Shown here: piece by piece, positions 2,850-61,785 of the stretch | Layout: each line of letters opens with the position of its first letter | Position numbering within the stretch: position 1 is the first letter of the stretch | From: Neisseria mucosa | GTDB taxonomy: Bacteria > Pseudomonadota > Gammaproteobacteria > Burkholderiales > Neisseriaceae | Direction: 5' to 3' | Length of the DNA: 64,000 nt | NCBI RefSeq assembly: GCF_013267835.1 | Contig: NZ_CP053939.1 | Location: 620,001 to 684,000 of the forward strand | Position numbers and translations under genes: made by a program | Notes under the pieces: model-generated | Databases searched by the model: none | What the model was told of the DNA's origin: nothing | Seen by the model: the letters and a program-made list of their open reading frames with translations, nothing else

Positions 2850-3422
2850 ATGACTTACGAAATTCAAGCCTCTGTACGCGAAGCCCAAGGCACTGGTGCG
2901 AGCCGCCGCCTGCGTCGCGAAGGCCAAATCCCTGGCATTCTGTACGGTGAAGGTCAAGAGCCTGTTGCAATCGCTGTAGACCACAAAACTGTATTCTACG
3001 CATTGGAAAAAGAATCTTTCCATACCGCTTTGATTAAACTGTCTCTGAACGGTGAAGCCAAAGACGTTATCGTGCGTGACTTCCAAATGCATCCATTCCG
3101 TCGCGAAGTTCAACACATCGACTTCCAAGCTGTGAAAGCCGATCAACCTGTACGCATCCGCGTTCCTCTGCACATTGTTAACGCTGAAAACTCTCAAGCT
3201 GTTAAACTGCAAGGTGGTCGCGTATCTCTGTTGAACACTTCTGTTGAAGTAATTGCTTTGCCTGCAAACATTCCTGCTTTCTTGGAGCTGGATTGTACAT
3301 CAGTAGTTGCCGGCGACATTCTGCACTTGTCAGACATCAAATTGCCGGAAGGTGTTGAAAGCGTTTCTTTGAAACGTAACGAAAACCTGGCTGTTGCTAC
3401 TGTTACCGGTAAAAAACGCTAA
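2850..3422 (+). CDS. rplY: 50S ribosomal protein L25, Ctc type
   Basis: This is the long (190-residue) Ctc form of L25, which binds 5S rRNA. An N-terminal L25 beta-barrel (about 1-95, with the [20 protein letters not shown] signature) is followed by a C-terminal TL5-like domain. Translation starts at an ATG preceded by TTGGAG. A terminator follows within 20 bases, so rplY is the last gene of its unit. Confidence 0.95.
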
Positions 3423-3439
3423 TCGTAGTGAATATAAGA

Positions 3440-3471
3440 AAACCGTATCAGATAAATCTGATACGGTTTTT
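3440..3471 (+). terminator. rplY terminator
   Basis: AAAACCGTATCAG and its complement flank a short ATAAAT loop and end in a T-run. Because A and T tracts lie on both sides it could also act on the minus strand. Confidence 0.85.
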
Positions 3472-3573
3472 GTTTGATGTAAGCGGCTATAAATTCAAAC
3501 AGTGGAGATAAAGCCAAAGTATCTTATAAAGTCATTTGCTATAAAACTTGGGTATAGCGTAAAGCGATACGTT

Positions 3574-4074
3574 TTATAAGATTGAAGCAATTTCTTTGCG
3601 AAGCTTATTAAGAAAGCGTCCATGCCGTACCCATTGTGCAGCTGATTCATAATCCTGCTGTTCAAATGCTTGTTTCAAATCTTGATATAGGCTGCTTTGT
3701 GCATTTTGGATTTCTTGATCCAATGCTCGGATAGCATCATGGTTTTGTTCCATCTGAGCATCCATTAATGTTTCTCGCCATTCCATTTGTTGCATGAGGA
3801 ATTCTGGAGAGAAAGAAGTATGTTCAGGTGCGTCAGCATCGATACCTTGCATTTTCAACAGGTACGCAGCGCGGTCAATGGGATTTTTTAAGGTACGGTA
3901 GGCTTCGTTGATGGTGGACGACATCATCACTGCCTGCTTTTGCTCGAAGGCGGAGGCTGAAGCGAATTTGTCAGGATGGAAACGGGCAGCCAAGGCGCGG
4001 TAGGTTTGCTCCAAGTTTTCGGCGTCGATATCGAAAGCGGGTTCAAGCTGGAAGAGTGTGAAATATTGAGACAT
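3574..4074 (-). CDS. hscB: Fe-S assembly co-chaperone HscB
   Basis: J-domain protein of 166 residues. The HPD tripeptide is at residues 33-35, within the pattern RFHPDKF, and the C-terminal half is the alpha-helical IscU-binding domain. HscB delivers the IscU scaffold to the Hsp70 HscA and stimulates its ATPase. Its usual partners hscA and fdx are not adjacent here. Unlike the classical isc operon, arfA, read in the opposite direction, lies between hscB and iscA, so hscB must use its own promoter in the short region it shares with arfA. Confidence 0.92.
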   Translation of the reverse strand: MSQYFTLFQLEPAFDIDAENLEQTYRALAARFHPDKFASASAFEQKQAVMMSSTINEAYRTLKNPIDRAAYLLKMQGIDADAPEHTSFSPEFLMQQMEWRETLMDAQMEQNHDAIRALDQEIQNAQSSLYQDLKQAFEQQDYESAAQWVRHGRFLNKLRKEIASIL

Positions 4075-4121
4075 AGCGGGATAATTAATGTGAAATTTTC
4101 GGCAGAAACCTGATTTTGCCT

Positions 4122-4127
4122 TATAAT
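4122..4127 (+). promoter_or_regulatory. Probable -10 box of arfA
   Basis: TATAAT lies 30 bases upstream of the arfA ATG in the hscB/arfA divergent gap. No convincing -35 is visible. Confidence 0.4.
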
Positions 4128-4156
4128 CCGCTGATTCTTAATCAAAAGGACTGAAT

Positions 4157-4378
4157 ATGAGCAGTAAAGTGCAACACAATAAAGGCAAAATACGCGACAA
4201 TGCTTTAAAAGCCTTAGTGAAATCCGATTTGTTCCGACACAAGGTGGAACGGAAAAGAAAAGGCAAAGGCAGCTATAACAGGCAGGAAGCGAAAAAATGG
4301 CGGGATGGTTTTGATACTGTCCCGCCATTTTTATGTCTTAAACGTGGAAGCTCTCGCCGCAGCCGCAAGAGTCTTTGA
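4157..4378 (+). CDS. arfA: Alternative ribosome-rescue factor ArfA, with terminator inside the gene
   Basis: The first 45 residues match the ArfA family pattern: [16 protein letters not shown], then [16 protein letters not shown]. ArfA binds ribosomes stalled at the end of mRNAs without a stop codon and recruits RF2. AAAGGA lies six bases before the ATG. The frame runs on to TGA at 4376-4378 (73 residues), but a strong intrinsic terminator at 4293-4332 sits inside it, so most transcripts should end without a stop at about codon 57-58. Known from E. coli: such a non-stop arfA message is normally destroyed through tmRNA and yields active truncated ArfA only when trans-translation fails. The 3' part overlaps the end of iscA in antisense. 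The active product here is inferred to be about 57 residues. Confidence 0.85.
4293..4332. terminator. Bidirectional terminator inside arfA and behind iscA
   Basis: The 13-bp stem AAAAATGGCGGGA/TCCCGCCATTTTT encloses a 14-base loop. On the plus strand it lies within the arfA coding frame; on the minus strand it is the first hairpin after the iscA stop and ends in a T-run. Confidence 0.88.
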
Positions 4379-4658
4379 CATTCGGGTTTTCAAATTTGAA
4401 ACCTTCCTGCAAACCTTCTTTGGTGTAATCGACTTGCGTGCCGTCCAGATAAACCAAGCTTTTTGGATCGATATAAACGCGCGCGCCGTGTTCTTCAAAA
4501 ATCAGATCATCCTCGTTCACTTCATCGACAAATTCAAGGTTGTATGCCATGCCCGAGCAGCCGCTGGTTTTCACACCCAAGCGCACACCCAACCCTTTGC
4601 CGCGTTTGGTCAGGTAGCTGTTGATGTGTTTGGCTGCGTTTTCTGTGATAGTAATCAT
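4338..4658 (-). CDS. iscA: Iron-sulfur assembly protein IscA
   Basis: A-type Fe-S carrier of 106 residues with the three invariant cysteines C34 (TSGCSGMAY), C98 and C100 ([10 protein letters not shown]). It passes Fe or Fe-S clusters to target apoproteins. An upstream in-frame ATG at 4679 would add seven residues, but the ATG at 4658 has GAGGA at the proper distance and gives the family N terminus. The closing [10 protein letters not shown] and the overall alignment favour IscA over ErpA. The HhH gene and iscU lie upstream on the same strand. Confidence 0.92.
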
Positions 4659-4706
4659 GCTTTTTTCCTCATTTCGCAATCATTTTCTGTTTTGCCTGCT
4701 TTTTTA

Positions 4707-4743
4707 TTTCAGACGGCATCTTGATTATCAGGCCGTCTGAAAA
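4707..4743 (-). terminator. Mixed-dialect DUS hairpin at the end of the HhH gene
   Basis: TTTCAGACGGC and GCCGTCTGAAA face each other across a 15-base AT-rich loop. One arm is the AT-DUS form (ends in GGCAT), the other the AG form. The hairpin begins inside the last codons of the upstream gene and may separate it from iscA. Confidence 0.6.
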
Positions 4744-4973
4744 CGCTGTTTTGCCCACTCTATTGCGGCGGCAATGGCAGCTTTAGCCTGCGGACTATTT
4801 CTCCAACAGGTCGAGCCGGTTAATTGTGCGCCCCGTTCCAAAATATCGTCTAAATCTGCCGCCGCCAGCTTGGCAATATCATCTAATCCCATTTGCTGCA
4901 AACGCTGCAATATGGTTTTACCTATGCCTTCGACAGCAAGTAGGGATTGGACTTCTTCATCAGTAAAAGGCAT
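4728..4973 (-). CDS. Small helix-hairpin-helix protein
   Basis: 81 residues, no signal peptide. A helix-hairpin-helix pattern is visible near the N terminus (LLAVEGIGKTILQRLQQMG, residues about 11-29), as in proteins that contact DNA non-specifically; the C-terminal half is alpha-helical with an Ala-rich stretch. It may belong to the Cdd1-like HhH family, but this cannot be confirmed here. The last residues FQTA and the stop are encoded by a DUS. It lies between iscU and iscA on their strand, so co-transcription is likely; a role in Fe-S assembly is not implied by the sequence. Confidence 0.7.
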   Translation of the reverse strand: MPFTDEEVQSLLAVEGIGKTILQRLQQMGLDDIAKLAAADLDDILERGAQLTGSTCWRNSPQAKAAIAAAIEWAKQRFQTA

Positions 4974-5045
4974 TTCGCCTCCTTTGATTTTGCAGGTATA
5001 ACGACTAAATTAAATATAAGCTGCGATTTATTGCCCTCTCCCTAA

Positions 5046-5068
5046 CCCTCTCCCGCGGGGAGAGGGGA
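5046..5068. repeat. CCCTCTCCC/GGGGAGAGGG palindrome in the iscU-HhH gap
   Basis: The 262-base gap 4974-5235 has no gene. It holds this GC-rich palindrome, preceded by a further CCCTCTCCCTAA copy of one arm, and a weaker stem at about 5183-5201 (AAGACTC/GAGTCTT). The former resembles a dispersed short repeat and could form a terminator or mRNA-stabilising hairpin behind iscU. Function is unproven. Confidence 0.5.
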
Positions 5069-5235
5069 TAGATTGGCAGGCAGTCCCAAATTTGGCGGCA
5101 ACTTCAAAAGGATGAAGTTTCTGTGCTCTCAATTCACCCTGTCTGCTTAAGAGGAGAATAAATCACCAGATTTGCTTTTCTCGAAGACTCGCTAGGAGTC
5201 TTGGGCACCTGCCGACAAGGGGTCGTTGAATTCGG

Positions 5236-5622
5236 TTATTTGTTTTCCTGACGTTTGCGATAGTCGGCAACGGCTGCTTTTACCGCATCTTCAGCCAAGA
5301 TAGAGCAGTGGATTTTAACTGGAGGCAATTCCAACTCTTCGGCAATTTCGCTGTTTTTGATTGCCAGTGCATCGTCAAGGCTTTTGCCTTTCACCCACTC
5401 GGTAATCAGGCTGGAAGAAGCGATGGCGGAGCCACAACCGTAAGTTTTGAATTTGGCGTCTTCGATGATGCCTTCATCGTTTACTTTGATTTGCAGGCGC
5501 ATGACGTCGCCGCAGGCGGGTGCGCCGACCATGCCGGTGCCGACAGACTCGTCGTCTTTGTCGAATGTGCCGACGTTGCGGGGGTTTTCATAGTGGTCAA
5601 TTACTTTATCGCTGTATGCCAT
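5236..5622 (-). CDS. iscU: Fe-S cluster scaffold protein IscU
   Basis: 128 residues, the usual length. The cluster ligands are present: Cys and Asp in GAPACGDVM, Cys in YGCGSAIASSS, and Cys in the LPPVKIHCSILAEDA segment. LPPVK is the HscA recognition motif, consistent with hscB nearby. IscU accepts sulfur from IscS and assembles [2Fe-2S]/[4Fe-4S] clusters. In this genome the gene is separated from iscS by about 1.37 kb of accessory sequence, so its expression may depend on readthrough of hairpins or on a local promoter. Confidence 0.96.
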   Translation of the reverse strand: MAYSDKVIDHYENPRNVGTFDKDDESVGTGMVGAPACGDVMRLQIKVNDEGIIEDAKFKTYGCGSAIASSSLITEWVKGKSLDDALAIKNSEIAEELELPPVKIHCSILAEDAVKAAVADYRKRQENK

Positions 5623-5691
5623 GATGTGGTTTCCTTTATGTTTTTTGATGGTTTAAATGGTTTGTTTGCCGGTTTTCAGACGACCTGAAAT

Positions 5692-5820
5692 TCAGATTTT
5701 GCACGCGCCGCCTTCGCAGCCGTCATCGTTTTCCGAATCGACGCCGCCTTCCACGGTAACGCCGTCAAAATCTCCAAGCAGGCTGTCGAGATTGTCGAGG
5801 TCAAGTTCTTGTTCGTTCAT
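5692..5820 (-). CDS. 42-residue acidic peptide upstream of iscU
   Basis: A short frame from ATG (5818-5820) to TGA (5692-5694) with AAGGA eight bases upstream. The product is strongly acidic (MNEQELDLDNLDSLLGDF at the start, then ENDDGCEGGACKI) and has two cysteines in a C-x4-C arrangement at the C terminus. The good ribosome site, the ordered composition and its place between iscS and iscU support a real gene. No function is recognised; a metal- or cluster-linked role is only suggested by the cysteines and context. It lies between two copies of the mucosa-type DUS, so it may have been imported together with the genes upstream. Confidence 0.55.
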   Translation of the reverse strand: MNEQELDLDNLDSLLGDFDGVTVEGGVDSENDDGCEGGACKI

Positions 5821-5854
5821 GGGCTGTATCCTTGATTTTAATGTGGTGGCTTTT

Positions 5855-5900
5855 AGGTCGTCTGAAAAGGTTTTTTGGGATTTTCAAGACGACCTTTTTA
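5855..5900 (-). terminator. Hairpin from mucosa-type DUS pair
   Basis: AGGTCGTCT/AGACGACCT plus GAAAA/TTTTC form the stem, with one bulged A in the right arm, followed by TTTTTA in plus orientation. It lies between the 144-residue ORF and the 42-residue ORF and uses the AGGTCGTCTGAA dialect. Confidence 0.6.
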
Positions 5901-5956
5901 TTTATTAGGTAGGTTTAGTTGTTAAGCCCAACATTTCGGGTAGATTGATAGGCTTG

Positions 5957-5973
5957 TTGGGTTTTCAACCCAA
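5957..5973 (-). terminator. Small hairpin after the 144-residue ORF
   Basis: TTGGGT and ACCCAA close a TTTTC loop immediately behind the stop codon at 5975-5977. It is flanked by a GTAGATTG...CAATCTAC repeat, so it may belong to a dispersed element rather than be a strong terminator. Confidence 0.4.
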
Positions 5974-5974
5974 T

Positions 5975-6409
5975 CTACGCTTGCTGATTTAATTTTTTGA
6001 TATAAGAAATAATCTCACTAAATTCAACTGGCTCATATCCATATGATTTTACAAATTCCACACAAACAGTAACCCACCGACTTTCTCGAAAGAAAGCTAA
6101 TACAACAGATTTAACCTCTTGATAACCAAGATTTAAATCCTCATTAAAATCTTTTTCCATCAAGGAATGTAGATTACCGTCTAGTCTTCCTTCAAGTATT
6201 TTCTTATCATATTTTTCAAATATATCATGGGCTTTATCTAAATCTTCTTCAGACCAATCAAACTCAATAACTAACGATCCGATCGGATTATTCGAATAAT
6301 TTTGATAGCTATTCAACATGCTTATATGGAATTTAATTTTTGCAATTTCTTCCTTTTGGTTTTCTAGAAGTTTTTGTACGTCAAAATACTGTCTATCGTC
6401 TACCATCAT
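5975..6409 (-). CDS. Unknown protein, accessory island gene 2
   Basis: 144 residues, acidic and soluble, without signal peptide or membrane segment. The N-terminal third (DVQKLLENQKEEIAKIKFHI) is predicted helical; an aromatic FRESRWVTVCVEF stretch lies near the C terminus. I recognise no family. AAGGA precedes the ATG. The DNA is clearly richer in A and T than the isc genes on both sides. The gene begins 17 bases after the 150-residue ORF, so the two form an operon. Size and acidity would fit an immunity or partner protein, but this is conjecture. Confidence 0.7.
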   Translation of the reverse strand: MMVDDRQYFDVQKLLENQKEEIAKIKFHISMLNSYQNYSNNPIGSLVIEFDWSEEDLDKAHDIFEKYDKKILEGRLDGNLHSLMEKDFNEDLNLGYQEVKSVVLAFFRESRWVTVCVEFVKSYGYEPVEFSEIISYIKKLNQQA

Positions 6410-6426
6410 AAAATCCTTTTATCTTT

Positions 6427-6879
6427 TTACCCTATTATTTTATTGCCATTTGAAATCATTAATGCAATATCCGATTGCAAGGCATGTTTAATTTCCAGGA
6501 TAGACTCTTCCGCACTTTTTTGTTCATAATAGCGATTGTATTTAGAGAGAGTATTCTTCCAACCATTGATCTTTTGTCCCAGCACAGGATTCGAAAATTT
6601 ATCATCACTAGCAATAGCTAATTGCGATACTGCTGACATAAGTTTCTCAATTTCTGCGATCTCTGCATCAATTTTTACACCTCGTAAATGTCTAGCAGGT
6701 AACTTCCCAATTTTTTCATAACAATAGCGTAGATTTAAAACCATATCATGCAAATCTCTACGATTAGATATTTCATCTCTTAATTTCTCTGTTTGTTTTT
6801 TCAATCCCCATGCTTTAACAGCCGATACAATGCTGACAATACCTGCAATAATATTGATAAAAGTATTTATTTTTTCCAT
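6427..6879 (-). CDS. Unknown membrane-anchored protein, accessory island gene 1
   Basis: 150 residues. One N-terminal hydrophobic helix (about residues 5-23, INTFINIIAGIVSIVSAVKAW) is followed by a Lys/Arg-rich, largely helical cytoplasmic part with coiled-coil-like stretches (KKQTEKLRDEISNRR; DAEIAEIEKLMSAVSQL). No family is recognised and the ribosome site is weak. It is AT-rich and sits directly downstream of iscS, separated from it by a mucosa-type DUS hairpin. Together with the 144-residue ORF it forms a two-gene cassette inserted in the isc cluster. Confidence 0.7.
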   Translation of the reverse strand: MEKINTFINIIAGIVSIVSAVKAWGLKKQTEKLRDEISNRRDLHDMVLNLRYCYEKIGKLPARHLRGVKIDAEIAEIEKLMSAVSQLAIASDDKFSNPVLGQKINGWKNTLSKYNRYYEQKSAEESILEIKHALQSDIALMISNGNKIIG

Positions 6880-6923
6880 TTGTAATCTGTGTTCAAAAAA
6901 TTTTGATTCAAAATTAGTCTATT

Positions 6924-6967
6924 TTCAGACGACCTGTATAGGCCTATATGTTTAGAGATCGTCTGAA
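6924..6967 (-). terminator. Hairpin behind iscS from mucosa-type DUS arms
   Basis: TTCAGACGA at 6924 and TCGTCTGAA ending at 6967 pair across an AT-rich loop. It is the first hairpin downstream of the iscS stop and should reduce readthrough into the accessory genes and iscU. Confidence 0.6.
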
Positions 6968-6996
6968 GTTTAGTCAGCTAAATATTTGTACCTTTA

Positions 6997-8211
6997 TCAA
7001 TGCGCCGCCCATTCAATCGAATTCAAATCAATCCCATCTTTGAACATTTCCCACAGGGGCGACAGTTCGCGCAGTTTGCCGATTTTGGATTTGATTAGTT
7101 CAGCGGCGAACTGCACTTCTTCTTCGGTGGTCATGCGGCCGAAGGTGATGCGCAGGGATGAGTGTGCCAATTCGTCGTTGCGGCCGAGTGCGCGTAAAAC
7201 GTAGCTTGGCTCAAGGCTGGCGGAGGTACAGGCGGAGCCGCTGGATACGGCGAGTTCTTTCACTGCCATAATCAGGCTTTCGCCTTCGACGAAGTTGAAA
7301 CTGACGTTTAGGTTGTTCGGGGCGCGGTGTTCGAGGTCGCCGTTGATATAGACTTCTTCGATGCCTTCGATACCTTTGAGGAAGATGTCGCGCAGTTTGC
7401 GGTAGTGCGCCATGTCTTGCTCGAGTTCTTCTTTGGCGATGCGGAAGGCTTCTCCCATGCCGACGATTTGATGGGTCGGCAGGGTGCCGCTGCGGAAGCC
7501 GCGTTCGTGGCCGCCGCCGTGCATTTGGGCTTCGAGACGCACGCGTGGTTTGCGGCGTACATACAGGGCGCCGATGCCTTTGGGGCCATATACTTTGTGA
7601 CCGGACATGGACAGCAAATCAACTTTGGCGGCTTCAACGTCGACAGGCACTTTGCCGCATGCTTGCGCGGCATCGACGTGGAAAATGATTTTGCGTTCGC
7701 GGCAGATTTCGCCGATGGCGGGAATGTCTTGCACCACGCCGATTTCGTTGTTTACCCACATTACGGAAACGAGAATGGTGTCTTCGCGGATGGCGGCTTT
7801 CAGTACGTCTAAATCAACCAAGCCGTTTTCTTGTACGTCCAGGTAAGTTACTTCAAAGCCTTGGCGTTCGAGTTCGCGCATGGTGTCGAGCACGGCTTTG
7901 TGCTCGGTTTTGACGGTGATGAGATGTTTGCCTTTGGTTTTGTAGAAGTTTGCCGCGCCTTTGATGGCGAGGTTGTCGGATTCGGTCGCGCCGCTGGTGA
8001 AGATAATTTCTTTGGGGTCGGCGTTAATCAGGGCGGCGATGTCGGCGCGGGCTTTTTCGACTGCCTCTTCTGCTTCCCAGCCGAATGCGTGGCTGTTGGA
8101 AGCGGGGTTGCCGAAGGTTTCGGTCAGGTAGGGAATCATTTTTTCGGCAACGCGTTTGTCAACGGGGGTTGTGGCGGCGTAGTCGAGGTATACAGGGGTT
8201 TTGACGGTCAT
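6997..8211 (-). CDS. iscS: Cysteine desulfurase IscS
   Basis: 404 residues, the standard length. The PLP lysine lies in [12 protein letters not shown] and the catalytic cysteine on the mobile loop in [14 protein letters not shown]. IscS converts cysteine to alanine and passes persulfide sulfur to IscU and to tRNA-thiolation enzymes. iscR lies 51 bases upstream on the same strand, so the two are co-transcribed and probably repressed by IscR. iscU is displaced by the accessory island downstream. Confidence 0.97.
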
Positions 8212-8262: not shown

Positions 8263-8709
8263 TTAATGAATGTGTGTAAAGGTAACGACATGACTGCTGT
8301 CGCTGCAGTTTTTTTGTTCAATGATGCTTTGCAGCGTAACGCCGCTGAGGTAATCATTGATGGTTTTGTTTAAGTTTTCCCAAAGGTCATGGGTCAGACA
8401 GGGGGCGCCGTGGTGGCAGTTTGCTTTGCTGCCGCATTGTGTGGCATCCAGTCGGTCTTCGGCTGCGGAAATGATTTGTGCAATATTGATTTGCTCGGCG
8501 GGCGCGGCAAGGATGTAGCCTCCGCCTGGGCCGCGTAGGCTTTCAACCAATCCGGCACGGCGCAGCTTGCTGAATAATTGTTCGAGATAGGAGAGCGATA
8601 TGCTTTGTCGTTCGCTGATGGCACTGAGTTTGACAGCACCGGTTTGCGCGTTCATCGCCAAATCTATCATGGCGGTTACTGCAAATCGCCCTTTGGTAGT
8701 CAGTCTCAT
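8263..8709 (-). CDS. iscR: Fe-S cluster regulator IscR
   Basis: Rrf2-family winged-helix protein of 148 residues. The cluster ligands C92, C98, C104 and the distal H107 are in place (QCGSKANCHHGAPCLTH). Holo-IscR represses the isc genes through type 1 sites; apo-IscR binds type 2 sites. A candidate operator overlaps its own promoter region at 8757-8781. It is transcribed divergently from lldD. Confidence 0.95.
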   Translation of the reverse strand: MRLTTKGRFAVTAMIDLAMNAQTGAVKLSAISERQSISLSYLEQLFSKLRRAGLVESLRGPGGGYILAAPAEQINIAQIISAAEDRLDATQCGSKANCHHGAPCLTHDLWENLNKTINDYLSGVTLQSIIEQKNCSDSSHVVTFTHIH

Positions 8710-8756
8710 GGTGTGGTTGCCTGTGTGGGCGTTTTTATTAGTGGGGGAATTGTCTA

Positions 8757-8781
8757 ATATCTGAGTGTTTCAGTCAAGTAT
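8757..8781 (-). promoter_or_regulatory. Candidate type 1 IscR operator and iscR promoter
   Basis: Read on the minus strand, ATACTTGACT and ACTCAGATAT flank a five-base centre; 7 of 10 positions are symmetric. TTGACT inside the left half-site can serve as -35, with GACAAT 17 bases further. The layout resembles the E. coli iscR promoter, where IscR covers the -35. The rest of the 358-base iscR/lldD gap (8710-9067) holds one DUS at each side of its middle part and an inverted repeat listed separately. Confidence 0.6.
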
Positions 8782-8938
8782 GTGGCGGCTCGGTTTGATT
8801 GTTTGTTTAAATGGTGGCATGGGTTGATTTTTAAATCGGAAAATATTTTCTTTATTTTTCTGTAATTTGGATTTGAGGCCGTCTGAAAAAAGGCTATCAA
8901 CCCTACAAATATCAGGGTTAAAATGTTTTGATTTAATA

Positions 8939-8961
8939 TTGATAGTAATATAGATTATCAA
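8939..8961. promoter_or_regulatory. TTGATA...TATCAA inverted repeat upstream of lldD
   Basis: Two 6-base arms with an 11-base spacer lie about 107 bases before lldD in AT-rich DNA. It could be an operator for lldD; the spacing is too wide for a standard FNR box. Confidence 0.3.
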
Positions 8962-9067
8962 AATTATTCTTAAAATTTAGTTGTTTTGATGGAGCAAAGT
9001 GAAGGGTTGTTTGAAATGTTCAGACGGCCTGAACCATCCGTCTTTACCTTAACAGAGGCAATCGACA

Positions 9068-10240
9068 ATGAAATGTGATTTAAGCAAAATAACCTGTATC
9101 GAAGACTTGCGCCTTGTTGCCAAACGTAAAATGCCGCGTATGTTTTATGACTATATTGACTCAGGCTCTTGGACGGAAACCACTTATCGTGAAAATACTT
9201 CGGATTTTAAAGACATCCGTTTCCGTCAAAAAGTATTGGTTAATATGGAGGGACGCAGCCTTGAGACCAAAATGATCGGGCAGGATGTGAAAATGCCGGT
9301 AGCGATTGCACCGACCGGTTTCACGGGTATGGCGCACGCCGACGGCGAAATCTTGGCGGCGCGGGCGGCGGAAAAATTTGGTATTCCGTTTACGCTGTCG
9401 ACCATGTCCATTTGTTCGATTGAAGATGTGGCTGAAAACACCAGCGCGCCGTTTTGGTTTCAGCTTTATGTGATGCGCGACCGCGAGTTTATGGAAAACC
9501 TGATTAAGCGTGCGAAAGATGCTAACTGCTCGGCTTTGGTTTTGACAGCCGATTTGCAGGTTTTGGGTCAGCGCCACAAAGACATCAAAAACGGCCTGTC
9601 TGCGCCGCCGAAACCGACCATCGCCAATTTAATCAATTTGGCGACCAAACCGGAATGGTGCATGAAAATGCTGAATACGGAACGCCGCACCTTCCGCAAT
9701 ATTGTCGGTCATGCGAAAAACGTGGGCGATTTGTCTTCGCTGTCTTCATGGACTTCCGAACAATTCGACCCGCGCCTGAGCTGGGACGATGTGGCGCGCA
9801 TTAAGGATTTGTGGGGCGGCAAGCTGATTATCAAAGGCATTATGGAACCTGAAGACGCGGAAAAGGCAGCGAAAAGCGGTGCGGACGCATTGGTTGTTTC
9901 CAATCATGGCGGCCGTCAGCTTGATGATACCGTATCCGCCATCAAAGCTTTGCCTGATGTAGTCAGCGCGGTGGGCAGCGATATCGAGGTTTGGATGGAC
10001 AGTGGCATTCGCAGCGGTCAGGATATTTTGAAGGCTTGGGCTTTGGGTGCAAAAGGTACGATGATAGGCCGGGCGTTCCTGTATGGTTTGGGTGCGTATG
10101 GTGAAGAAGGCGTAACCCGTGCGCTGGAAATCCTGTATAAAGAAATGGATATTTCCATGGCGTTTACCGGTCACCGCAATATTCAAGATGTGGATTCCAG
10201 CATTTTGCGTTCTACGCGTTGGACTCAAGATGAATTTTAA
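9068..10240 (+). CDS. lldD: L-lactate dehydrogenase, FMN-dependent
   Basis: 390-residue member of the FMN-dependent alpha-hydroxyacid dehydrogenase family, which oxidises L-lactate to pyruvate at the membrane and feeds the quinone pool. The active-site His motif SNHGGRQLD, the FQLYVMRDRE substrate loop and the FMN-binding DSGIRSGQDILKA and GAKGTMIGRAFLYG motifs are visible. Start at the ATG after AGAGGCAATCGAC. Adjacency to iscR/iscS is, from memory, also found in N. meningitidis. A DUS terminator follows. Confidence 0.94.
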   Translation: MKCDLSKITCIEDLRLVAKRKMPRMFYDYIDSGSWTETTYRENTSDFKDIRFRQKVLVNMEGRSLETKMIGQDVKMPVAIAPTGFTGMAHADGEILAARAAEKFGIPFTLSTMSICSIEDVAENTSAPFWFQLYVMRDREFMENLIKRAKDANCSALVLTADLQVLGQRHKDIKNGLSAPPKPTIANLINLATKPEWCMKMLNTERRTFRNIVGHAKNVGDLSSLSSWTSEQFDPRLSWDDVARIKDLWGGKLIIKGIMEPEDAEKAAKSGADALVVSNHGGRQLDDTVSAIKALPDVVSAVGSDIEVWMDSGIRSGQDILKAWALGAKGTMIGRAFLYGLGAYGEEGVTRALEILYKEMDISMAFTGHRNIQDVDSSILRSTRWTQDEF

Positions 10241-10301: not shown

Positions 10302-12107
10302 CTATTTCTCGTTTTTGCGATACCATTCGATGAAGGCATCAGGTTTGACAAAGCCTAATAAGGCTTCGCTATGACTGCCGTCGGCGCGGACAACAAACAC
10401 GCCCGGAGGGCCGAAGAGGCCGTATTCTTTCAGTAAGGCCTGATGGCCGGGAGTATTGGCAGTCACGTCGATTTGGAAGAAGCGCTGCATATCGACCGCT
10501 TCGTGTACCTGCGGCTGGTTGAGCGTGTAGGCGGCCATTTCTTTGCAGGATACGCACCAGTCGGCGTAGAAATCAATCAGCACGGGCTTGCTTGGATCGG
10601 CTTTCAAGGCGGCATCCATAGCGGCTTTGAGTTCGCCGACATCGGTAAACATCTTGCCGTGGTCGGTTTCTTGTCCGTCTTCTGATGGAGGAACCAGCGT
10701 TAGGAAGTGGTGCAGGGCGGTGGTTTGTTTATTGAAGCTTTGCCAGCCAAACCACGAGCCGCCAATCAGCAGTAAAAAGCCCAATACGGCGGCAACTGTT
10801 TTCAGACGGCCTTTTTGTTTGCCTGATTTTGCCAAAAGCATCAGGGCGGGAACAATCATCAGCAAGGTGTAGAGGCCGACTACTGCGAAATAGGGCAGAT
10901 GCGGCGTGGCGAGATATACGGCAACGGCCAGCAAAATGAAGCCGAATGCGTATTTGATGCCGTTCATCCAGTCGCCTGCTTTAGGCAGGATATGGCCGCC
11001 GAATGTGCCGATGATAATGAGCGGTACGCCGGTGCCAAGTGCCAAGACGTAAAGCGCGAGGCCGCCCAACACGGCATCGCCGGTCTGGCCGATATAGCCC
11101 AAAGCAAATGCCAGCGGAGGCGCAACGCACGGGCCGACAATCAGCGCAGACAAAATACCCATGATGAAGACGGAAACGATTTTACCGCCGGAGAGTTTGC
11201 TGCTTTGATTTTGGAAATAGGATTGGACGGAGTTGGGCAGCTGGATATTGAAGAAGCCGAACATCGACAGCGCCAATACCACCATCAACGCAGCGGCGGC
11301 AAGTACGACCCAAGGTTGTTGCAGCCATACGGTCAACAGCGCGCCGGTCAAACCGGCAATCACGCCGACCAAGGTGTAGGTCAATGCCAAACCTTGTACA
11401 TAAACCATAGACAAGGTAAACGCGCGGCCTTTGCCGGCTTTTTTATCGCCCACGACAATACTGGAAACAATCGGCAGGAGCGGATACATGCAGGCAGTAA
11501 AGCTTAAGCCCAAACCTGCGACAAAAAACGCCAACAGGTTGGCGTTTAAAGTATCCCAAGAGAGCTTGAAGCGGCTGCTGTCGGGATTGTTTGCACTAGG
11601 CTGGGCAGGCATTGGGCCGTCTGAAGAGGTGGACGGTTGTAAAAAGCGGTCTTTGGCAGAAACCGGCTCATCGCTTTGCGGCTGGTAAACCCCGTTGCCT
11701 TTTACGTCAAACTCAGTATCCACCGGCGGATAACACACACCGGCCTCGGCGCAGCCTTGATAAGTCAGCGTCAGTTTGTATTGCGGCGCGGCTTGTTTGT
11801 AAGGCAGGTCAACCTGTGCGGTATGGTGGTAAACCGTTTGTTTGCCGAAGAATTCGTCTTCTTTTTCTTCGCCTTTGCTGAATTTGGGTTTACCCAAGAC
11901 TTTGTCCGGATCGGTTGCTGCAACGATTTTGGACTGGTACATATAGTAGCCGTCAGCGATTTTGAACTGCACGCTGACGCCTTGATCAGTTACATTGACT
12001 TGAGGCACAAAGGCTTGCTCGGGAGGCAGCAAATCATTGGCATCTACTGCGAATGCGAAGCTGCTCAAGCCTAAAAATGCAATGAGGAAATAAAGGAATT
12101 TTTTCAT
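10302..12107 (-). CDS. dsbD: Thiol:disulfide interchange protein DsbD
   Basis: 601 residues. An N-terminal signal peptide (MKKFLYFLIAFLGLSSFAFA) leads to an alpha domain with paired cysteines (GCAEAGVCYPP), a multi-pass membrane beta domain with cysteines in ACMYPLLP and GPCVAPPLA, and a C-terminal thioredoxin-like gamma domain with WCVSCK. DsbD carries reducing power from cytoplasmic thioredoxin to periplasmic DsbC and cytochrome c maturation. A GTG at 12116 is also in frame, but the ATG at 12107 gives a clean signal peptide. It is transcribed alone. Confidence 0.95.
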   Translation of the reverse strand: MKKFLYFLIAFLGLSSFAFAVDANDLLPPEQAFVPQVNVTDQGVSVQFKIADGYYMYQSKIVAATDPDKVLGKPKFSKGEEKEDEFFGKQTVYHHTAQVDLPYKQAAPQYKLTLTYQGCAEAGVCYPPVDTEFDVKGNGVYQPQSDEPVSAKDRFLQPSTSSDGPMPAQPSANNPDSSRFKLSWDTLNANLLAFFVAGLGLSFTACMYPLLPIVSSIVVGDKKAGKGRAFTLSMVYVQGLALTYTLVGVIAGLTGALLTVWLQQPWVVLAAAALMVVLALSMFGFFNIQLPNSVQSYFQNQSSKLSGGKIVSVFIMGILSALIVGPCVAPPLAFALGYIGQTGDAVLGGLALYVLALGTGVPLIIIGTFGGHILPKAGDWMNGIKYAFGFILLAVAVYLATPHLPYFAVVGLYTLLMIVPALMLLAKSGKQKGRLKTVAAVLGFLLLIGGSWFGWQSFNKQTTALHHFLTLVPPSEDGQETDHGKMFTDVGELKAAMDAALKADPSKPVLIDFYADWCVSCKEMAAYTLNQPQVHEAVDMQRFFQIDVTANTPGHQALLKEYGLFGPPGVFVVRADGSHSEALLGFVKPDAFIEWYRKNEK

Positions 12108-12234
12108 AATATCCACGGATATGCCGTTGAGAAACCGTCATTATAAATGATGGGAAAACAATCGGCTTAATTTAAGTTAAAGATTACGCGAGTTGTCTAA
12201 TTCTTTTGAATTATATCGGATTACAGTTAACCGT

Positions 12235-12255
12235 ACATGAGCGATAGTCTCATGT
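12235..12255. promoter_or_regulatory. Inverted repeat in the dsbD upstream region
   Basis: ACATGAG and CTCATGT are separated by seven bases, about 130 bases upstream of dsbD. A possible operator; nothing else is recognised in 12108-12273. Confidence 0.25.
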
Positions 12256-12273
12256 TATCGTTCAATTTATGCC

Positions 12274-12304
12274 AAAGGCCGTCTGAAACGTTCAGACGGC
12301 CTTT
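12274..12304 (-). terminator. DUS-pair terminator of folE2
   Basis: A 14-bp stem AAAGGCCGTCTGAA/TTCAGACGGCCTTT with a three-base loop lies 20 bases behind the folE2 stop. Confidence 0.85.
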
Positions 12305-60586: not shown

Positions 60587-60683
60587 GACGGCGACGGGTT
60601 TGGTCTTTATACGCAAAAGGACGCAAAAAGGTCGTCTGAAAACAAATATAGTGGGGTTCGCTAAATCGTTTTCAGACGACCTT
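60587..60683. repeat. Left direct repeat of the HNH cassette, with mucosa-type DUS hairpin
   Basis: 97 bases that recur, with changes, at 61690-61785. Shared features in order: GACGGCG, GGTCTT(T)ATACGCAAAAG, AGGTCGTCTGAAAA, a TATAG segment, CGCTAAATCGTTTTCAGACGACCTT (part). The DUS arms at 60629-60640 and 60671-60682 make a hairpin that terminates the HNH gene. Confidence 0.8.
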
Positions 60684-60708
60684 AAATCAACGGACTGTTC
60701 AACACTAT

Positions 60709-61515
60709 TTATTCTTCTTTTTGGAAAACATGGTTGCGGTGATACTCGAAATATTTTTTGCTTTTCGGTCGAATTTTCAATTTAATATTGGGAGAAATTC
60801 CAAGCCGCTTTTGATTTTCCGGATCGATTTTCGGACTGATTTTTATCGTCCCGTCGGTCTCAAACGTAATCAGACCGCTATCGAATAATGCGTCGATATT
60901 GGGTGCGAGCATCAGACCATTGGAGGGGTCTAAACGCTCTGTATCGTTGCACTTACTCCAAGGTTTAATATGGCTGGCAATGAGTAAAGATTGAATATTT
61001 AGACCTGTTAGCGGGCAGCTTGGATATAGTTCGAGTACGTCTTGCCGGAATTTTCCTTGCGCTAGACGGGCTTTGATCAAAGTCTCAATTTCGGTTCGCT
61101 TTTCTGGATTGGTTTCGGATGCTAAACATTCTTCGAGTTCGTCTATATCAGATTTTAAGGATAAGGCAGAAGCTGCCTGAAAATTTGGTATTCCTGTGAG
61201 CTGTTCTAACGGTAACCCTTTATCCTTACAGGTTTTGCATGGATTTAGTCCTTTTTGGTATTCAATCCAGCTCCATTGTTCAAGTTCTTCAATGGAGTTT
61301 GAGCAAACTTTGAAATATTTTTCAGTTGTGCTTTCTCCCGGTCTATCATTTAGGTGGTGACAATTAGCAAAATGTATTCTGGGATGACTCTTATGAATAT
61401 TAGAAGGGTTTTTACGCCTATGTATATTTAATACAAATCCATTTGGGTTTTCATCAATCCATTTAATATAGTCATCATCATCTGGCATATCTTTAAAAAT
61501 TTTTATATCAGACAT
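60709..61515 (-). CDS. HNH endonuclease, restriction-like
   Basis: 268 residues from the ATG at 61515, preceded by GGAG. The C-terminal HNH_2-type domain has CPLTGLNIQSLLIASHIKPW, then RLDPSNGLMLAPNIDALFDSG: the His of ASHI, the Asn of SNGL and the downstream Asn/Asp form the betabetaalpha-metal site. The N-terminal half is unassigned but has CxxC (CKTCKD). Such nucleases occur as stand-alone or type II/IV-like restriction enzymes; no methyltransferase is next to it. AT content is higher than in the flanking genes, and the gene sits between long direct repeats, so it is likely imported. Confidence 0.82.
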   Translation of the reverse strand: MSDIKIFKDMPDDDDYIKWIDENPNGFVLNIHRRKNPSNIHKSHPRIHFANCHHLNDRPGESTTEKYFKVCSNSIEELEQWSWIEYQKGLNPCKTCKDKGLPLEQLTGIPNFQAASALSLKSDIDELEECLASETNPEKRTEIETLIKARLAQGKFRQDVLELYPSCPLTGLNIQSLLIASHIKPWSKCNDTERLDPSNGLMLAPNIDALFDSGLITFETDGTIKISPKIDPENQKRLGISPNIKLKIRPKSKKYFEYHRNHVFQKEE

Positions 61516-61590
61516 AAGTTTCTCCAAATCTTTTCTATAGATTCAATTAAGTTTGTTTGTATATATAGGTTCGGGACAAAAAATCTAGGC

Positions 61591-61693
61591 CGTCATTCCC
61601 GCGCAGGCGGGAATCCAGAAGTTTGGATTTACAGTAATCTTTAAATATTTCTGAAATACAGAGGTCTGGATTCCCGCCTGCGCGGGAATGACG
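61591..61693. repeat. dRS3-bounded NIME repeat unit
   Basis: Two dRS3 copies, each ATTCCC-8 bases-GGGAAT (61595-61614 and 61670-61689), face each other and bracket about 55 bases; the arms extend to CGTC...GACG and CCAGA/TCTGG. This matches neisserial intergenic mosaic elements. It occupies most of the 302-base gap 61516-61817 together with the right direct repeat. Confidence 0.82.
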
Positions 61694-61785
61694 GCGGTCG
61701 GCTCGGTCTTATACGCAAAAGAACATATAAAGGTCGTCTGAAAATAGATATAGCAGAATCCGCTAAATCGTTTTCAGACGACCTT
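61690..61785. repeat. Right direct repeat of the HNH cassette, with mucosa-type DUS hairpin
   Basis: Second copy of the 97-base repeat. Its DUS arms (61731-61742 and 61773-61784) form the terminator behind purL. Confidence 0.8.

Follow-up and report, generated by a model that had tools for sequence, protein, structure and literature searches.

In Neisseria, the definition of minimal mobile elements (MMEs) includes conserved flanking genes, between which lie different whole-gene cassettes that differ between strains and are incorporated solely by homologous recombination (PMC3898611). The core defense hotspots of Pseudomonas aeruginosa also have fixed core-gene borders and changing cargo that includes defense genes, with medians of 26 kb and 6 kb (PMC10250203). 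On a smaller scale, toxin-antitoxin modules place two small genes side by side. Here we describe an interval of Neisseria mucosa, between iscS and iscU, that can be compared with all three, along with the two genes, called A and B, that it holds. The window, meaning the whole stretch of DNA that was analyzed, is 64,000 nucleotides long, and its relevant features are listed in Table 1.

Table 1. Features of the iscS–iscU interval and its borders (window coordinates)
Feature	Position	Strand	Remarks
iscU, conserved flank	5236..5622	-	Pfam NifU_N, 2.1e-55; identity to relative G034 steps within it or close by
iscS–iscU interval (cargo slot)	5623..6996		1374 bp in the window
AGGTCGTCTGAA uptake sequence, gap between 42-codon ORF and iscU	5675..5686	-	Exact
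42-codon ORF, slot resident	5692..5820	-	Acidic; C terminus GCEGGACKI; in 18 of 43 intervals
AGGTCGTCTGAA uptake sequence, gap between B and 42-codon ORF	5855..5866	+	Exact
Gene B	5975..6409	-	ORF of 144 aa; second gene of the module
Gene A	6427..6879	-	ORF of 150 aa; first gene of the module
AGGTCGTCTGAA uptake sequence, gap between iscS and A	6924..6935	-	Exact
DUS-like AGATCGTCTGAA	6956..6967	+	Inverted relative to AGGTCGTCTGAA at 6924..6935
iscS, conserved flank	6997..8211	-	Pfam Aminotran_5, 3e-92; identity to relatives mosaic

An earlier note, made from the letters of the window, had placed two AT-rich genes between iscS and iscU, and both are there: Pfam confirms the two genes that border the gap, and the GC content is 0.29 to 0.35 over A plus B versus 0.45 to 0.58 over the neighboring isc genes (300-base windows). 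Its description of A as membrane anchored and of B as acidic also fits: A starts with a hydrophobic stretch, and B has 27 D/E residues against 17 K/R. The note had further counted a 42-residue ORF as part of the cassette, and this had to be given up, since the ORF occupies the same site, nearly unchanged, in 18 of 43 intervals (Table 1). It carries two cysteines and may represent a small protein resident in the isc cluster. Cargo lies mostly on its iscS side and, at two loci (L033 and L047), on its iscU side. Across positions 5600 to 7050, 4 promoter-like sites were counted (6.1 expected), and a search for terminator-like sites returned none.

What occupies this interval in other species? iscU was found in 43 of 46 genomes of the genus, the window's own included and each species represented by one genome. 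Both iscS and iscU are on the fetched stretch in 42 of these, and a contig end intervenes in one. In the 41 other species, the gap ranges from 86 to 1802 bp and its contents differ between species: 15 have a gap of at most 318 bp and 26 have inserts of 597 to 1802 bp. The control gap between iscR and iscS is 26 to 95 bp (44 loci, some genomes fetched twice), and the distance from iscU to the next gene is 45 to 731 bp (42 loci, again with some genomes fetched twice). The comparison across Neisseria that had been proposed as a check therefore finds the slot empty or differently filled in all 41, and the iscS–iscU interval is almost certainly a cargo slot across the genus. No publication on it as a Neisseria exchange site was found, judging from titles and the starts of abstracts. 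The stretch from iscU to iscA (4338 to 5235 in the window) is also variable in length, at 29 to 1348 bp over 43 loci with some genomes represented twice, and could be another variable site of smaller size.

The cargo was typed by Pfam (20 proteins), by PADLOC (20 proteins), and by mutual BLAST, some ORFs lying outside these scans. Clear toxin or defense genes are present in 8 of the 26 inserts: Fic proteins in three; a MazE-like/PIN pair in two, one of which was scanned while the other is 85 to 86% identical to it; a CAP12/PCTIR TIR protein in one; a TIR-like effector, recognized by PADLOC at 9.7e-9 with no Pfam match, in one; and JukA in one. Elsewhere the slot holds one DUF559 protein, one weak HEPN match below the cut-off, and secreted, lipoprotein-like, or unrecognized ORFs. 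The most recurrent cargo seen is a set of RraB/DUF695 fusion proteins at four loci (L056, L063, L064, and L065), 75 to 94% identical, one of them scanned. An enrichment of the slot for defense genes was considered and is not claimed, because PADLOC matches at 1e-8 also arise in ordinary window ORFs. In a control set of 54 ORFs (55 were picked, and that at 4305 to 4721 was dropped), 22 models had one or more matching members at that threshold; DndA is among them, a match probably explained by IscS.

How might such cargo be exchanged? The sequences of the flanks are mosaic. The four nearest relatives are 97.3 to 98.2% identical to the window in iscR and 90.6 to 93.4% in iscS; in 300-base steps, identity is 94 to 98% over positions 8401 to 9300 and 90 to 94% over 6901 to 8100. 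The first 15.6 kb has other dips similar in size to that of iscS (e.g., at 301 to 900, 2101 to 2400, and 12001 to 12300) and larger ones at 3301 to 4200, so two other patterns carry more weight. (i) In one relative, G034, identity steps down from 98.0% (5101 to 5400) to 88.3% (5401 to 5700) and 83.5% (5701 to 6000). (ii) Two other genomes, G007 and G013, share 77 to 79% identity with the window in a core gene at 9068 to 10240 and 78 to 79% in iscR, versus 91 to 94% in iscS and 89 to 91% over the region of the 42-codon ORF. Among the four nearest relatives, the slot has no insert in G026 and G011, JukA in G034, and a gene with a signal-like N terminus in G044. Such a pattern would be expected if cargo were replaced through recombination between homologous flanks, and the mosaic flanks point to exchange by recombination. 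No recombinase or integrase was recognized among the ORFs of the window's interval, from the ORF list and Pfam.

The uptake sequences (DUS) of the interval need to be read with the slot in mind. There are three exact copies of AGGTCGTCTGAA, one AGATCGTCTGAA, and none of AGGCCGTCTGAA, and in the genome as a whole AGGTCGTCTGAA is the rare dialect, with 103 copies versus 2473 of AGGCCGTCTGAA. By our own reading, AGGTCGTCTGAA is the AG-mucDUS dialect, which has been described for N. mucosa and N. sicca strains and differs from AT-DUS at positions -1 and +2 (PMC3630211). A majority of AG-DUS suits several commensal species that the same paper names, including N. subflava. The observation of a rare dialect in the interval stands, but its exclusiveness does not: four further copies of AGGTCGTCTGAA lie in the window at 60629 to 61784, and 11 of 42 intervals from other species (one of the 42 truncated where its contig stops) contain it too, which makes the slot itself a source of part of the signal. 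In four of the 11 (L036, L039, L049, and L058), two exact copies in opposite orientation stand immediately 5' to the 42-codon ORF. The dialect by itself was rejected as proof of a donor, given that the slots of other species share AGGTCGTCTGAA. The copies at 60629 to 61784 form two inverted pairs about 1.1 kb apart that flank an ORF at 60712 to 61527, possibly another imported block. Import by transformation, which the earlier note had argued from the dialect, now finds support on firmer ground, namely, the slots of 41 species that are empty or otherwise filled and the mosaic flanks.

Set beside the described systems, the site resembles the MMEs of Neisseria. Two conserved genes flank differing whole-gene cassettes (42 intervals with the window's, inserts in 26 of the 41 others), and the flanks appear to recombine, their mosaic identity being read with the similar dips elsewhere in the window in mind; no integrase was recognized among the interval ORFs. 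The differences from MMEs as defined (PMC3898611) are that variation is seen here between species rather than between strains and that the site is inside the isc gene cluster. The likeness to the P. aeruginosa hotspots is one in spirit, through the fixed borders and changing cargo. Unlike those hotspots as they are described (PMC10250203), the slot holds mostly one to three genes within 1.8 kb, and it has mosaic flanks instead of a recognized mobile element.

What do A and B look like as proteins? A is predicted to have an N-terminal membrane helix followed by a helical domain (pLDDT 80.6; helices at 2 to 58, 70 to 90, 98 to 119, and 124 to 149). B is modeled as soluble and all-helical (pLDDT 89.6), and structure comparison gave 1sed, the YhaI protein of Bacillus subtilis, as its best match, so that the model of B matches the DUF1878/YhaI fold. 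A structure search on both proteins, as had been suggested, was thus productive for B but not for A, for which Foldseek returned helical look-alikes only and none at an E value of 0.001. A profile of A searched against PDB sequences reached at best 0.0003, to a designed repeat taken as noise. With Pfam DUF1878 (PF08963), window B scores 18.2 bits (E 0.0038), below the 23-bit gathering cut-off; of 26 A and B proteins scanned from the wider group, 9 match at an E value of 0.01 or lower, the best at 1.9e-9. B also departs from YhaI in the signature of the A-linked group, W52 and H61-D62-x-F-E65-x-x-D68, which by our reading of the alignment is absent from the aligned YhaI stretch. A search of the literature for DUF1878 gave no paper, and one for YhaI gave nothing related.

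No toxin, antitoxin, or defense domain was found in A or B with Pfam, NCBIfam, PADLOC, or PHROGs, and B has no match among viral models at an E value of 0.001. Neither window protein matches PADLOC-DB 2.0.0 at an E value of 10, and 26 family members give only stray single-member matches there, at 0.0047 or worse. The pair is outside every named defense or toxin-antitoxin family in the libraries searched.

Relatives of B were found on six plasmids of Agrobacterium, Methylomonas, and Methylobacterium (32 to 43% identity) and in ten genome loci (35 to 46%) belonging to Methylococcaceae, Nitrosomonas, Rhodobacteraceae, Shewanella, Novosphingobium, two Escherichia, Acinetobacter, Jiella, and Halarcobacter. 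An alignment search added one viral contig, in which B stands behind two ORFs that we read as putative integrases. In a six-frame profile search of the fetched loci, B is immediately preceded by an open A frame in 13 lineages, counting the window; two of the 13 (L084 and L089) are close relatives. The lineages span alpha-, beta-, and gammaproteobacteria, Campylobacterota, and the viral contig. The genes run in the same direction, spaced by -8 to +5 nucleotides in 12 lineages and by 17 in the window; one locus, L091, has no usual start codon ahead of the membrane helix of A. Because window A shares only about 20% identity with the other A proteins, it was tested against shuffled versions of itself: it scores 31.4 bits with a profile built from eight other A proteins, versus at most 16.6 for 2000 shuffles that keep the first 35 residues. 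Judging from this score, window A is homologous to the gene upstream of B in the other lineages. The adjacency in 13 lineages bears out the paired membrane/soluble module that had been suggested, and A–B is very probably a travelling two-gene unit.

Could the pair be decaying foreign DNA with no function in its host? The strong AT bias and the low identity of window A would suit such an origin, but both frames are open, B keeps all 19 listed columns that are invariant across the family, and the pair is adjacent and in the same order as in other lineages. Decay seems very unlikely.

The distribution of the pair is patchy. Among 398 sampled genomes of the phylum, B was matched only in the window's own and in one other (G551), and among 5426 Escherichia coli genomes it was matched in 16. 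Its settings are mobile ones: plasmids, an integrase-adjacent E. coli island, and the viral contig. Searches anchored on A led back to those 16 E. coli genomes and to 5 of the 6 plasmids that carry B, none of which had A without B; loci on genome contigs were found through B, so that A-only loci could be missed there. Plasmid searches gave no record with window A and 5 records with the A of the viral contig. Searches gave nothing for A in the genome contig collection or for A or B among phage records, and single-sequence searches gave nothing for either in viral contigs. Single-sequence matches to B in 23 genomes besides its own, among 369 of the class, had E values of 0.001 to 0.8 and were treated as chance. 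A conserved third gene downstream was considered and rejected, as the ORF lists of ten loci and Pfam searches of nine neighbors and one integrase showed no recurring family. In the Nitrosomonas locus (L090), a PLD-like protein (PLDc_2, 2.5e-21) directly follows the pair at 1414 to 2295.

Within the genus, the earlier note had named, among the findings that would count against its reading, the same genes at this place in all Neisseria with normal composition. Neither A nor B occurs in any of 99 other genomes, of which 45 belong to the genus. This also bears on whether the pair is a dedicated accessory of iron–sulfur assembly, placed in the isc operon to serve it, as the shared strand and the position inside the operon might suggest. 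In those 45 genomes, the slots are empty or hold unrelated genes, and the Agrobacterium and E. coli loci shown have no annotated isc gene next to the pair, which makes such a role exceedingly improbable. A broader alternative is that A and B form a membrane-linked pair for stress or physiology, with no part in conflict, that happens to use an exchange slot. It draws on the 18 of 26 inserts that are not clear defense genes, RraB/DUF695 and secreted or lipoprotein-like ORFs among them, and on the lack of a toxin or defense domain in both proteins. Set against it is the extreme patchiness just described, with plasmids and integrases as company, and we regard this alternative as unlikely.

The fate of the two genes differs where the pair is degraded. 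Four Escherichia loci (L094, L095, L099, and L100) share identical internal deletions in A. Of these, the first three retain an intact B, whose dN/dS of 0.12 to 0.16 among them indicates purifying selection; in L100 B is frameshifted, and L106 has an annotation for the same short ORF. L099 adjoins a tRNA-Ser gene. G551 has no A by profile search, and a short ORF upstream of its B resembles, by eye, the membrane helix of A and then stops. In the integrase-adjacent E. coli type of island (L101, 10089 to 10640), the A frame shifts near its 3' end, by a lesion or a programmed frameshift; the shift is common to four E. coli genomes with identical sequence, and 5 of the 16 B-positive E. coli genomes were inspected. 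The losses fit a gene A that is costly and a gene B worth keeping alone, and selection on B without A suggests that B has a function beyond guarding A.

In 60 of 66 pairs, B is also more strongly conserved than A (mean identity, 46.2% versus 33.6%), an observation that fits B as the active part at least as well. The roles could then be reversed, with A a fast-evolving, membrane-anchored sensor and B, the conserved partner, an effector or enzyme recruited or activated by A. The invariant polar residues of B (H61, D62, E65, D68, Y96, Q97, and K100), which by alignment reading are not kept in the aligned stretch of YhaI, would make sense in such an enzyme. An effector that depends on A would oddly be maintained intact, under purifying selection, where A is deleted, and YhaI, the closest solved relative, is without known activity. 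We consider reversed roles quite unlikely.

Taking both assignments of roles together, a conflict function for A–B is somewhat probable. The pair shares several traits with toxin-antitoxin modules: two small, co-oriented genes that are adjacent in 13 lineages and overlap or nearly do so in most, a patchy distribution, and the loss of one partner while the other is kept. It differs from them in having no known toxin or antitoxin family and in a first gene whose product is predicted to be membrane anchored. The toxin-immunity, defense, or stress module that the earlier note had guessed at is plausible and now better motivated, by the neighbors in the slot, the mobile contexts, and the decay of A with B persisting. 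Our preferred reading, held tentatively and at something short of even confidence, is an anti-phage or toxin-control pair in which B restrains a harmful membrane protein A; that A is the harmful part is a possibility we would put no higher.

How would such a system work? Cargo would be swapped by DNA uptake and by homologous recombination through iscS and iscU. A would be anchored in the inner membrane, its helical domain facing the cytoplasm, as the lysines that follow the helix suggest. The two genes may be translationally coupled, and their products would bind each other, B holding A in check. A trigger such as phage infection would then release A to act at the membrane. It is conceivable, if somewhat doubtful, that both parts of the larger picture hold at once: A–B as an undescribed anti-phage or conflict system made of a membrane effector and a YhaI-fold controller, and iscS–iscU as a genus-wide swap site at which transformation exchanges single conflict modules.

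Overall, the slot offers a fixed address between two core genes at which the cargo of Neisseria, conflict genes included, can be read species by species. As inserts come and go there, their effect on iscU expression becomes testable. The pairing makes the orphan DUF1878/YhaI fold one half of a two-gene system that is open to test and has members in alpha-, beta-, and gammaproteobacteria and in Campylobacterota, and should the proposed function of A–B prove true, the DUF1878 superfamily would gain its first function.
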